From Dermatemys mawii (Eukaryota; Chordata; Testudines; Dermatemydidae): DNA of 64,000 nucleotides. This document shows positions 25,531-56,000 of this stretch, one piece after another. The number at the start of each line of letters is the position of its first letter. The first letter of the stretch is position 1. The position numbers and the translations under genes are program-made. The notes beneath the pieces were generated by a model. That model did not search any database and had not been told where the DNA came from. It saw only the letters and a list, made by a program, of their open reading frames with translations. The stretch covers positions 56,966,720 to 57,030,719 of the forward strand of contig ML677334.1 in the NCBI GenBank assembly GCA_007922305.1, read 5' to 3'.

Positions 25531-25880
25531 CTGACAAAAGGTGCTGAAGATTATTTGTATTTTACTGTAGCTATGCCCAGCATTATACAAAAGGTTACAT
25601 ATGCCACTGAAAAAATAGTTACTGCACATGAAAGGCTTACAGTGTAAAGGCATGAGTGTCTGTTGCAAAGATATGTTGAGCTTTGTCCACCAGGAACTGT
25701 ATTAAAACTGCCTAATACATCTGTATCAGCCAATATATATAGTGTAAATGAAAATGATTTTGGTCACTGATAACTTAGGCTGGTTTTGAACTATCCAAAA
25801 GTTTCCTGAACAATTCAATCTCCTTGTGTTCATTATCTAACAGTTAATTCATAACGAGGATTTAGGCTTGATCCAAAGCT
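25531..25880. other. Unassigned spacer
   Basis: Contains no recognisable feature apart from a short dispersed-repeat-like motif, TTAGGCTTGATCCAAAGCTC, at 25861, directly before the CR1. Confidence 0.45.
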
Positions 25881-25884
25881 CACT

Positions 25885-27300
25885 GAAGGCTGTGGAGAAA
25901 GTGTTTCAGGACTTTTTAGAAAAGCTGGATGAGCACAAGTCCATGGGGCCGGATGCGCTGCATCTGAGGGTGCTAAAAGAGTTGGCGGATGTGATTGCAG
26001 AGCCATTGGCCATTATCTTTGAAAACTCATGGCGATCAGAGGAGGTCCCAGGTGACTGGAAAAAGGCTAATAGTGTGTCCATCTTTAAAAAAGGGAAGAA
26101 GGAGGATCCGGGGAACTTCAGGCCAGTCAGCCTCACCTCAGTCCCTGGAAAAATCATGGAGCAGGTCCTCCAGGAATCAATTCTGAAGCAGTTAGAGAAG
26201 AGGAAAGTGATCAGGAACAGTCAGCATGGATTCACCAAGGGCAAGTCATGCCTGACTAATCTAATTGCCTTCTGTGATGAGATAACTGGCTCTGTGAATG
26301 AGGGGAAAGCAGTGGAGGGGATGAGGGGAAAGCAGTGTTATTCCCTGACTTTAGGAAAGCTTTTGATACAGTCTCCCTCAGTATTCTTGCCAGCAAGTTA
26401 AAGAAGTATGGGCTGGATTTAATGGATTAAAAGGTGAATAGACAGCTGGCTAGATCATTGGGCTCAACAGGTATTGATCAATGGCTCCATGTCTAGGTGG
26501 CAGTTGATATCAAGCGGTATGCCCCAATGGTCGGTCCTGAGGCCGATTTTGTTCAATATCTTCATTAATGATCTGGTGTGGATTGCACCCTCAGCAAGTT
26601 TGCAGATGACACTAAACTGGGAGGAGTGGTAGATACACTGGAGGGTAGGGATAGGATACAGAGGGACCTAGACAAATTAGAAGATTGGGCCAAAAGAAAT
26701 TTGATGAGATTCATCAAAGACAAGTGCAGAGTCCTGCACTTAGAACGGAAGCATCCCATGCACTGCTACAGACTAGGGACCGAATGGCTAGACAGCAGTT
26801 CTGCAGAAAAAAAACCTAGGGGTTACAGTGGACAAGAAGCTGGATATGAGTCAACAGTGTGCCCTTGTGGACAAGAAGACTAATGGCATTTTGGACTGTA
26901 TAAGTAGGAGCATTGTCAGCAGACTGAGGGACGTGATCGTTCCCCTCTATTCGGCACTGGTGAGGCCTCATCTGGAGTACTGTGTCCAGTTCTGGACCCC
27001 ACACTACACGAAGGATGTGGAAAAATTGGAAAGAGTCTAGCGGAGGGCAACAAAAATGATTAGGGCCCTGGAGCACATGACATATGAGGAGAGTCTGAGA
27101 GAACTGGGATTGTTTAGTCTACAGAAGAGAAGACTGAGGGGAGATTTGATAGCTGCTTTCAACTACTTGAAAGGGGGTTCCAAAGAGGATGGATCTAGAC
27201 TGTTCTCAGTGGTACCAGATGACCGAACAAGGAATAATGGTCTCAAGTTGCAGTGGGGAGGTTTAGATTGGATATTAGGTAAAAAAAAAAATCAGTAGGA
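25885..27300 (+). pseudogene. CR1 ORF2 reverse-transcriptase remnant
   Basis: ORF2 of CR1 encodes endonuclease plus reverse transcriptase; only the reverse transcriptase and its C-terminal side remain. The first frame (to 26401) holds the palm region: Gly-Pro-Asp-Ala-Leu-His near the start, the Phe-Lys-Lys-Gly-Lys-Lys-Glu-Asp-Pro-Gly-Asn-Phe-Arg-Pro-Val-Ser motif, and Gln-His-Gly-Phe-Thr-Lys-Gly-Lys-Ser-Cys. Frame is lost after the short duplication at 26298. The catalytic Phe-Ala-Asp-Asp motif is present but in another frame (within 26578-26883: Lys-Phe-Ala-Asp-Asp-Thr-Lys-Leu). Later blocks continue in frames 26828-27040 and 27056-27298. At least three frame breaks or stops make it non-functional. 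Confidence 0.93.
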
Positions 27301-53165: not shown

Positions 53166-53479
53166 ACAAGTCTTTTGTAATAAATTAACCCCATAGAGCT
53201 TGTGAGGCGTTACCAGGGACTCTGGAACAAAAGGGGAAATTGAGGTAAATGTACCTATCTTCACAGGTACCTTGCTACAGGAGGGTACCCCAGGCAAGGG
53301 TCATGCCTTATCACATATGGTGGAGAATGCAGGCAGACAATTGGGCCCTGGGAAACAGGGACACCAGATGAGGAAAAATGAGACAGGGATCACTAACAGG
53401 GATATCTTGATCATAGGAGGAGTGTTGAGGAGGTGGTCATTCTTTGACAAAGCTGTTGGAAAAAGCCACACACCTCTAT
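53166..53479. other. Unassigned sequence left of the CACTG element
   Basis: Contains TACCAGGGACTCTGGAACAA and ACAGGTACCTTGCTACAGGA with no family I can name. It forms the left flank of the element at 53480 and ends in TAT. Confidence 0.4.
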
Positions 53480-53606
53480 CACTGGTCTACAATTTTTTAG
53501 AAGTCATCTGCTTCAGAGATAAAATGTGATATTTATTATGTATTTTGATGTGCTGAATTCAAATATGACAATTAAAACAACTGGCTACTGTTTCTAAGAT
53601 ATTTAA
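53480..53606. repeat. Left terminal inverted repeat of the CACTG element
   Basis: Pairs with 55881-56000. Matching blocks in order from the end: CACTG-x-TCTACA, TGCTTC-x-GA-x-ATAAA, ATTTTG-x-GT, ATGA, TTAAAA, TGGCT, AAGATAT-x-TTA. A 10-bp indel follows the first block. Confidence 0.75.
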
Positions 53607-53831
53607 GATTTTACATTTTGTATGTATGTTGTGTAGATAGTAGAGTTTTAATCATAAATTGTAAACCTAGGTCTTTTCATGTGTTTATGGTTGCTTTACA
53701 TGATAATATTTCACCTGTCCTGTTTGTGTAACACTTTAAAAATCAGCAAAAAGGTTATATAAATAAAATGTATTATGAAACAAAAGGCAAAAAACTATTA
53801 TGTACATAGTTTAGTCCTATTCAGTGTCTAC

Positions 53832-55490
53832 TCAGCACTTCTTGGCTTGTCTCTTGTATGCATTAAATGGAGCATCTCTTGTCACTGTCCAGCAACAGTC
53901 TGCAAGCATTGATGGGCTCCATTTGCCCTGATAGCGTTTCTCCATTGTTGCAATGTCCTGGTGAACATTGCTCGTCGCTCACTACTCCGCAGTTCGGTGG
54001 AAAAAAATCTAGATGAGAGTGCAAAAAATGTATCTTTAGTGACATGTTGCAACCAAGGCTTTTGTATGCCTTGAGGAGGTTTTCCACCAACAACCTGTAG
54101 TTGTCTGCCTTGTTGTTTCCAAGAAAATGTATTGCCACTGACTGGAAAGCTTTCCATGCCGTCTTTTCCTTGCCACGCAGTGCATGGTCAAATGCATCAT
54201 CTGGAGGAAGTTCACGAAGCTGAGGACCAACAAAGACACCTTCCTTTATCTTAGCTTCACTTAACCTTGGAAATTTTCCACGGAGGTACTTGAAAGCTGC
54301 TTGTGTTTTGTCAATGGCCTTGACAAAGTTCTTCATCAGTAAGGGTGGTAACAAAATCTTCCTTGATTCAACAAGTGGTGGATGCTGAACACTTTTCCTC
54401 CCAGGCTCCAATGACTGTCGCAGTGGCCAATCTTTCTTGATGTAGTGGGAATCTCTTGCACGACTATCCCATTCGCAGAGAAAACAGCAGTACTTTGTGT
54501 ATCCAGTCTGCAGACCAAGCAAGAGAGCAACAACCTTGAAATGGCCACAAAGCTGCCACTGATGTTGGTCATAGTTTATGCACCTCAAAAGTTGTTTCAT
54601 GTTGTCATAGGTTTCCTTCATATGGACTGCATGACCAACTGGAATTGATGGCAAAACATTGTCATTATGCAGCAAAACAGCTTTAAGACTCGTCTTCGAT
54701 GAATCAATGAAGAGTCTCCACTCATCTGGATCGTGAACAATGTTGAGGGCTGCCATCACACCATCGATGTTGGTGCAGGCTACAAGATCACCTTCCATGA
54801 AGAAGAATGGGACAAAATCCTTTTGACGGTCACGGAACATGGAAACCCTAACATCACCTGCCAGGAGATTCCACTGCTGTAGTCTGGAGCCCAACAGCTC
54901 TGCCTTACTCTTGGGTAGTTCCAAATCCCTGACAAGGTCATCCAGTTCAGCTTGTGTTATGAGGTGTGGTTCAGAGGAGAAGGATGGGAGAAAATGTCGG
55001 TCCTGTGACATTGATGGTTCAGGACCAGAAGTTTCATCCTCTTCCTTTTCCTCTTCCTCGTCTGACTCAAGTGAGAATGATTCTGGTGCATCAGGAACCG
55101 GCAGTCCTTCTCCATGGGGTATTGGGCGTATAGCTGATGGAATGTTTGGATAATGCACAGTCCACTTTTTCTTCTTTGACACACCTTTCCCAACTGGAGG
55201 CACCAGAAGTAACAATTGCTGGTATGATCTGTTGGCTCTCTCCAAATCATTGGCACTGCAAAAGGCATATATTTCCTTTTCCTGTTCAACCACTGGCGAA
55301 GATTTGTTGCACAAGTGTTGCAGCATGTGTGTGGGGCCCACCTCTTGTCCTGATCTCCAATTTTGCAGCCAAAATAAAGGTGATAGGCTTTCTTAACCAT
55401 AGTGGTTATACTGCACTTTTGTGATGCAAAAGTCACTTCACCACAAACATAGCAGAAGTTATCTGCACTGTTCACACAAGTACGAATCAT
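53832..55490 (-). pseudogene. Broken transposase-like gene of the CACTG element
   Basis: Start at 55490 is chosen because the first residues lead straight into a Cys-rich region; the stop is at 53832. Part 1 (55490 to about 55206) has C13-x2-C16 and C57-x2-C60, spaced like a treble-clef or ZAD-type zinc finger, then His89 and a Cys-Tyr-Phe motif. A 1-base loss there shifts the frame. Part 2 (about 55200 to 53965) is open for over 400 codons: a basic Lys4 stretch, an acidic Ser-Asp-Glu5 run, then Phe-Ile-Asp-Ser-Ser-Lys-Thr-Ser-Leu (Asp213 of that frame), Cys-Gly-His-Phe-Lys-Val, Cys-Cys-Phe-Leu-Cys-Glu-Trp-Asp-Ser-Arg, and His-Ser-His-Leu-Asp-Phe-Phe, ending Ser-Asp-Glu-Gln. An apparent 8-base loss follows and the last part (53950 to 53832) continues in a third frame. 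I suggest a DDE-type nuclease, with Asp213 as the first acid and a Glu lost near the second break. The role is inferred. Confidence 0.75.
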
Positions 55491-55627
55491 CTCTGCTCAC
55501 TTTGGCTAAATAGAAATGTGTCCCTTTGCAAAATCAAACACTGACAAATAAGAGAGCACAACACTGTATGATTTCTGGAGCTGATATAGGGCAATTTGTT
55601 CAGCAGAATGATGTAAGCTTCGTTATG

Positions 55628-55709
55628 ATTGCATCATCCATGACTTCTAGGAATAACATGATGCAATTCATATCATGTATGACGCAATACCAGCTTCAGA
55701 TTGCATCAT
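55628..55709. repeat. Four subterminal copies of the 10-bp motif ATGAYGCAAT
   Basis: Copies at 55628-55637 (reverse), 55658-55667 (forward), 55679-55688 (forward, ATGACGCAAT) and 55700-55709 (reverse). They lie between the gene start and the right terminal repeat, where CACTA-type transposons keep binding sites for their own protein. The motif also resembles a CRE/C-EBP half-site, so it could act in the promoter instead. Confidence 0.7.
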
Positions 55710-55880
55710 TCATTATTTTGCCTAAAAAGCAAGTACTGTCCAAACCCAGTCATAGATTTATTCATAGATCCAGTCAAAGATGTATTTTAGTCATTTCTGG
55801 TTTAAATTGAGATCCTTTCCCTTTATAACTCACTTATCCTCCGCCATTCCCATGTCAAGGGTCGTATATACTGACCCAAT

Positions 55881-56000
55881 AACATATCTTGAAAACTAGA
55901 GCCAATCAACAATTTTAAGCATCATTTTCGTTCTCAGTGACCCAAAATTGGTAAAGTTTGACTACATTTATTTCAGAAGCATTTTGGCTGTAGAGCAGTG
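55881..56000. repeat. Right terminal inverted repeat of the CACTG element
   Basis: Reverse complement of the left repeat, with scattered mismatches. On the plus strand it ends CTGTAGAGCAGTG at 56000. Confidence 0.75.

Follow-up and report, generated by a model that had tools for sequence, protein, structure and literature searches.

Introduction

Chapaev transposons have CAC/GTG ends, and those of the Chapaev3 group duplicate a TWA target that lies between an A and a T and encode transposases with the motifs C(2)C, LH and H(4)H (PMC4079192). The Chapaev3 family Merrow has been found in lampreys, fishes and a dragonfly, with more than 254 copies in the sea lamprey; in two lampreys it is 2,451 and 2,455 bp long and encodes 78 + 484 aa in two exons, and its members are defined by at least 80% nucleotide identity over 300 bp (PMC4079192). 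The Chapaev3 elements have been placed in a wider Transib group that is related to RAG1, and their transposases have a Cys-rich zinc-finger domain called Chapa (PMC4411706). They are listed in a blowfly, and the group is known in insects (PMC3630058).

We analysed 64,000 nucleotides of DNA from the turtle Dermatemys mawii, and this whole stretch is called the window below. We conclude with high confidence that window positions 53480-56000 (Table 1) are a dead copy of an autonomous cut-and-paste Chapaev3 transposon of the CMC superfamily that is closest to Merrow, and that its family probably entered the turtle lineage horizontally, multiplied in one burst and then decayed neutrally.

The turtle element compares with the described families as follows: It has 5'-CAC and GTG-3' ends with terminal inverted repeats, a 3-bp TWA duplication and the transposase motifs C(2)C, LH and H(4)H. 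These hallmarks, with TWA lying between A and T, are those of Merrow and, by description, are also held in common with the Chapaev3 families Garfield and Conan; in the turtle A and T are strongly preferred as neighbours, whereas in the published elements they are reported as always present (PMC4079192). The turtle consensus (below) is 2,550 bp long and its transposase 564 aa, compared with 2,451 bp and 562 aa for Merrow of Petromyzon marinus, while Garfield of the silkworm is shorter at 2,289 bp and 556 aa, as is Conan of the tenrec at 1,865 bp and 461 aa (PMC4079192). A further likeness to Merrow is that the turtle consensus protein is 88.3% identical to a protein of another lamprey (below). 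It differs from Merrow in being encoded by a single 564-aa frame rather than by two exons of 78 + 484 aa, and in its host, as no turtle appears in the host table of PMC4079192. Because the two-exon arrangement is not found and the total length is nearly equal, we refer to the element as Merrow-like and not as Merrow. Its Cys-rich N-terminus would be consistent with the published description of the Chapa domain (PMC4411706).

Table 1. Positions in the window of the Merrow-like element, its flanking duplication and its parts.
Feature	Position	Strand	Basis
Left copy of target duplication, TAT	53477..53479	.	One base differs from right copy
Whole element, decayed copy of Merrow-like Chapaev3 DNA transposon	53480..56000	- (gene on minus strand)	Ends compared with other copies
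Left outer inverted repeat CACTGGTCTACA	53480..53491	+	Terminal alignment
Degenerate extended inverted repeat, left side, limit approximate	53480..53605	+	Consensus alignment
Transposase gene, broken (4-, 15- and 8-bp deletions, 6-bp insertion, stop codon near end)	53817..55490	-	Consensus comparison
Segment with two invariant Glu (SDEHGERFHQD), struck by 8-bp deletion in window copy	53955..53979	-	Protein alignment
H-x4-H motif (HFLHSH), intact in window copy	54013..54030	-	Protein alignment
LH motif start (PPLH), His codon cut by 15-bp deletion in window copy	54339..54348	-	Protein alignment
C-x2-C motif (CFLC), intact in window copy	54475..54486	-	Protein alignment
Second invariant Asp (CGDLKV; consensus D316), His in window copy	54541..54543	-	Protein alignment
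First invariant Asp (FIDSSK; consensus D262), intact in window copy	54703..54705	-	Protein alignment
Cys-rich N-terminal region (CYVCG, CCNTC, CYFC), limits approximate	55190..55490	-	Protein alignment
Degenerate extended inverted repeat, right side, limit approximate	55880..56000	-	Consensus alignment
Right outer inverted repeat, reverse complement CACTGCTCTACA	55989..56000	-	11/12 bases match left
Right copy of target duplication, TAA	56001..56003	.	Flanking bases

Ends and copy number of the element

A sequence-only reading of the window had proposed that these positions are a DNA transposon relic with CACTG ends, and the proposed ends coincide with those of other copies. In 20 distinct other copies that were retrieved with their flanks, CACTG stands at the proposed left end in 15 and CAGTG at the right end in 15; the remainder have a changed base (three at the left, one at the right) or a different or unresolved end, or are cut by the fetched stretch. 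When the genome (1.81 Gb in 1,030 contigs) was searched with 53480-56000, the best 40 of 3,192 first-look candidates were scored and gave 42 matches of 94-100% identity, five of which, the window copy included, extend unbroken over at least bases 2-2,521. No second copy was found within the window. Patterns made from the two termini, with at most two mismatches allowed, match 3,635 left and 3,651 right ends genome-wide, and reversed control patterns of both ends gave 0 matches in the same genome. That reading had named copies of the gene with other ends, or a conserved single locus under selection, as findings that would speak against it; the ends proved to be common to the copies, and the gene does not lie at a single locus.

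Several contigs look like duplicate haplotypes, with parallel insertion places and equal or near-equal scores (C2 and C3, and also C32/C33, C34/C35 and C23/C24), so the real number of insertions should be somewhat below the ~3,600 given by the end counts.

The lengths of individual copies were estimated on one contig (C1) by pairing 100 listed left ends with 85 of 100 listed right ends, all of them exact matches. An exact right end lies within 6 kb of 59 of these left ends, and the other 41 have no exact right partner among those used. Forty-nine of the 59 paired copies measure 2,485-2,562 bp; five more are shorter, at 129 to 1,988 bp, and five longer, at 2,716 to 4,135 bp. Among copies selected for having two exact ends, the family is therefore mostly full-length and does not consist mainly of short deletion derivatives. 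A majority consensus was built from the 49, omitting the five paired copies shorter than 2,480 bp and the five longer than 2,570 bp. It is 2,550 bp long, and the window copy differs from it by 1.7% substitutions and 35 missing bases.

The inverted similarity of more than 100 bp that had been claimed for the window copy is weak there: in a local alignment of its outer 150 bp, 44 of 300 dinucleotide shuffles attain its score (3 of 300 for the consensus). What stands of the claim is found in the consensus, whose patchy end-to-end alignment beats 500 of 500 base shuffles at 120 and at 130 bp, whereas its score is attained by 3 of 500 at 50 bp and 42 of 500 at 80 bp. We therefore reject the view that the window copy clearly has long inverted repeats. 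The consensus has two copies of ATTGCATCAT and one of its reverse complement, ATGATGCAAT, between the start of the gene and the right end, at consensus positions 2178-2259 (window ~55627-55718); these are possible candidates for subterminal binding sites or promoter elements.

Target-site duplication

The duplication around the window copy is imperfect, with TAT on the left and TAA on the right. Among the 59 paired copies on contig C1, 54 have a perfect 3-bp duplication (32 TTA, 19 TAA and one each of TCA, ATA and TAC), in agreement with the earlier expectation of a 2-4 bp duplication beside many copies with exactly common ends. None of the 59 has a 4- or 5-bp duplication, and in two the duplication extends to 6 bp, the triplet being repeated in the flank. 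Transib duplications are 5 bp, unlike the 3 bp of the turtle element.

Over the whole genome, 1,990 of 2,536 exact left ends (78.5%) follow TWA, and 1,624 of these (81.6%) follow ATWA; similarly, 2,039 of 2,626 exact right ends (77.6%) precede TWA, and 1,641 of these (80.5%) precede TWAT. The contig C1 sample had given the appearance of an orientation-dependent asymmetry, with A on the left in 54 of 54 copies and T on the right in 35 of 54. This was rejected: the whole-genome values (81.6% A and 80.5% T) are symmetric, and thus the asymmetry on contig C1 is a sampling effect. The ~4,000 exact left and right ends that adjoin TWA make the family a large natural data set on Chapaev3 target choice.

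The transposase gene and its decay

As had been read from the sequence, the interior holds one minus-strand gene, with a Cys-rich N-terminus and the segments CCFLC and HSHLD; its ATG is at 55490 and its stop codon position is 53817-53819. In the consensus it encodes one unbroken 564-aa protein. A 564-aa frame is preserved in one of the 49 copies, although that copy departs from the consensus at conserved positions, and frames of 557-562 aa are preserved in three others.

When 5.8 billion proteins were searched and the best 7,987 candidates scored, 1,690 relatives of this transposase were found, of which 120 were listed. Fifty-seven of the 120 were aligned with the frame of one copy, and in these 58 sequences the following columns are invariant, in the numbering of the related protein P0002: D260, D314, C333, C336, L381, H382, H490, H495, E509 and E512. 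The Leu-His pair lies in PPLH and both Glu residues, E511 and E514 of the consensus, in DEHGERFHQ, and the Cys-rich N-terminus is also conserved in this alignment. In our own reading, these columns would correspond to the published C(2)C, LH and H(4)H motifs together with Asp, Asp and Glu.

The 49 copies have a mean divergence of 1.86% from their consensus, or 1.48% when CpG sites are excluded, and of 3.5% from one another. The pairwise value is about twice the divergence from the consensus, a star-like pattern that fits a single burst of amplification. Changes within the frame number 395 synonymous, 1,040 nonsynonymous and 59 stop, and the substitution pattern of the non-coding parts predicts 401, 1,022 and 71, respectively; observed and expected values are thus very similar, and the copies decay with no visible selection on the frame. 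Turtle substitution rates are about one third of the human rate (PMC4054807), and when this ratio is combined with absolute rates, the divergence would date the burst, as a rough estimate, to some 10 to 40 million years ago.

The history of the family may be put together as follows: A single element would have entered the turtle lineage, probably by horizontal transfer. Its DDE-type transposase of ~564 aa would bind the CACTG ends and excise the element, and insertion at A-TWA-T sites would leave the 3 bp TWA duplicated on both sides. One burst would have multiplied it into the thousands, with many full-length copies among them, and neutral decay would have followed.

Relatives in other animals and probable horizontal transfer

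The named sources among the 120 listed of the 1,690 relatives include Chrysemys picta, Lethenteron reissneri, Pyrocoelia pectoralis, Eumeta japonica, Scirpophaga incertulas, Ranitomeya variabilis and Helobdella robusta. Lethenteron reissneri is a lamprey, Pyrocoelia pectoralis a firefly, Eumeta japonica and Scirpophaga incertulas are moths, Ranitomeya variabilis is a frog and Helobdella robusta a leech. Two Chrysemys picta proteins have identities of 92.5% and 97.6% with the consensus over 374 and 255 aligned positions, respectively. The lamprey protein (P0009), which lies on a 13.8-Mb contig, can be compared with the consensus over 437 residues when an out-of-frame stretch is excluded, and its identity is then 88.3%; the firefly and frog proteins are 65.7% and 65.5% identical to the consensus. 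Horizontal transfer had earlier been suggested from similar predicted proteins in arthropods; such proteins do exist and transfer is likely, but the strongest signal comes from the lamprey and not from an arthropod.

At the 51 positions where the lamprey protein and the consensus differ, the outgroup P0002 matches the consensus in 33 cases, the lamprey in 8 and neither of them in 10. P0002 mostly agrees with the consensus, which puts most of the difference on the lamprey side, as would be expected if that copy had decayed. A tree of 38 sequences (37 of the 120 listed proteins plus the consensus) groups the lamprey protein, the consensus and P0001 with support of 100/98, and places the frog protein near those of the leech and the firefly. 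The out-of-frame lamprey stretch, when compared with the consensus in the other frame, is 78.6% identical over 42 aa, and because of this shifted-frame match the lamprey and turtle DNAs are probably also close.

Lampreys and jawed fishes split ~500 million years ago (PMC4079192), so an identity of 88.3% makes vertical descent unlikely. A Merrow-like Chapaev3 element has likely passed between animals horizontally, one lamprey protein being the support for this. We also think there is a good chance that the transfer took place no more than a few tens of millions of years ago, either between lamprey and turtle or from a third source to both, and that the burst of thousands of copies, some with unbroken frames, followed it. 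The number of turtle copies, in the thousands, is well above the more than 254 reported for Merrow in the sea lamprey, although the counting methods differ (PMC4079192).

Could the element instead be an old vertebrate resident that was kept in both lampreys and turtles with no transfer? The occurrence of relatives in a frog and in many other sources among the 120 listed would agree with such vertical inheritance, as would the fact that one lamprey protein is what backs transfer. We nevertheless regard it as improbable: identities to the consensus of 65.5% for the frog and 88.3% for the lamprey are in the wrong order for host descent, the neutral decay indicates that selection did not keep the copies alike, and the burst is young (1.9% divergence). 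Insertions common to Dermatemys mawii and Chrysemys picta were also sought and the idea was not retained, as two annotated Chrysemys picta proteins match the genome at best at 93-95%; this is a weak test, in which the best candidates were scored and the proteins may be spliced. Among viral contigs there were 46 pattern matches, and 0 were confirmed as relatives.

With horizontal transfer as the preferred explanation, the turtle joins the hosts of a group that has already been reported to jump among lampreys, fishes, insects, a lizard and a tenrec (PMC4079192). The host is the new part, and the element type is ordinary. The main text of that transfer study makes no mention of turtles (PMC4079192), the word Chapaev is absent from the main text of the painted turtle genome paper (PMC4054807), and the Chapaev passage in PMC7397244 concerns the anole. 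Our literature searches found no report of this element in a turtle and none of CMC-Chapaev with turtle, although Repbase may include a Chapaev3 entry from a turtle. The lamprey-turtle pair offers a sharp test of whether parasites or shared waters carry DNA between vertebrates.

Is the element a Chapaev3 transposon?

The element was assigned to the Chapaev3 group because it has the published hallmarks that were tested, the named Chapaev3 transposases having been compared by description (PMC4079192). The sequence-only reading had recognised no similarity to hAT, pogo, mariner, Harbinger or piggyBac proteins, and in our Pfam and NCBIfam profile searches no family reaches its cut-off; sequence and profile searches of solved structures also gave no meaningful match, including to any solved RAG1 or Transib structure. 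One might argue from the lack of coverage by these models that the element belongs to a separate, undescribed CMC-like superfamily that merely resembles Chapaev3, and the single frame, where Merrow has two exons, would point the same way. We consider this very improbable, since the length and sequence of the duplication, its A/T neighbours, the CAC/GTG ends and the three motifs all agree with Chapaev3 and the protein length agrees with Merrow. The earlier view of a distinct lineage related to CACTA/Mirage/Chapaev was thus right as to the relationship, but the lineage is neither distinct nor unfamiliar (PMC4079192), and an unfamiliar or new superfamily is not called for. That the gene is a domesticated host gene of transposon origin, as the one long open frame filling the interior might suggest, is hardly credible given the thousands of dispersed ends, the target duplications, the neutral codon changes and the broken window copy.

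Other features of the window

Three other open frames in the window resemble parts of mobile elements. The frame at 511-936 on the minus strand has a CCHC-like knuckle (CGKKKHFITQC) and no Pfam match at E 0.01, and is perhaps a remnant of a retroelement gag or ORF1. The frame at 25841-26401 on the plus strand matches reverse transcriptase (PF00078, E 4.9e-8) and is a retroelement fragment, probably of a LINE. On the same strand, the frame at 21282-21635 matches the hAT C-terminal dimerisation region (PF05699, E 3.7e-5) and is a hAT transposase remnant.
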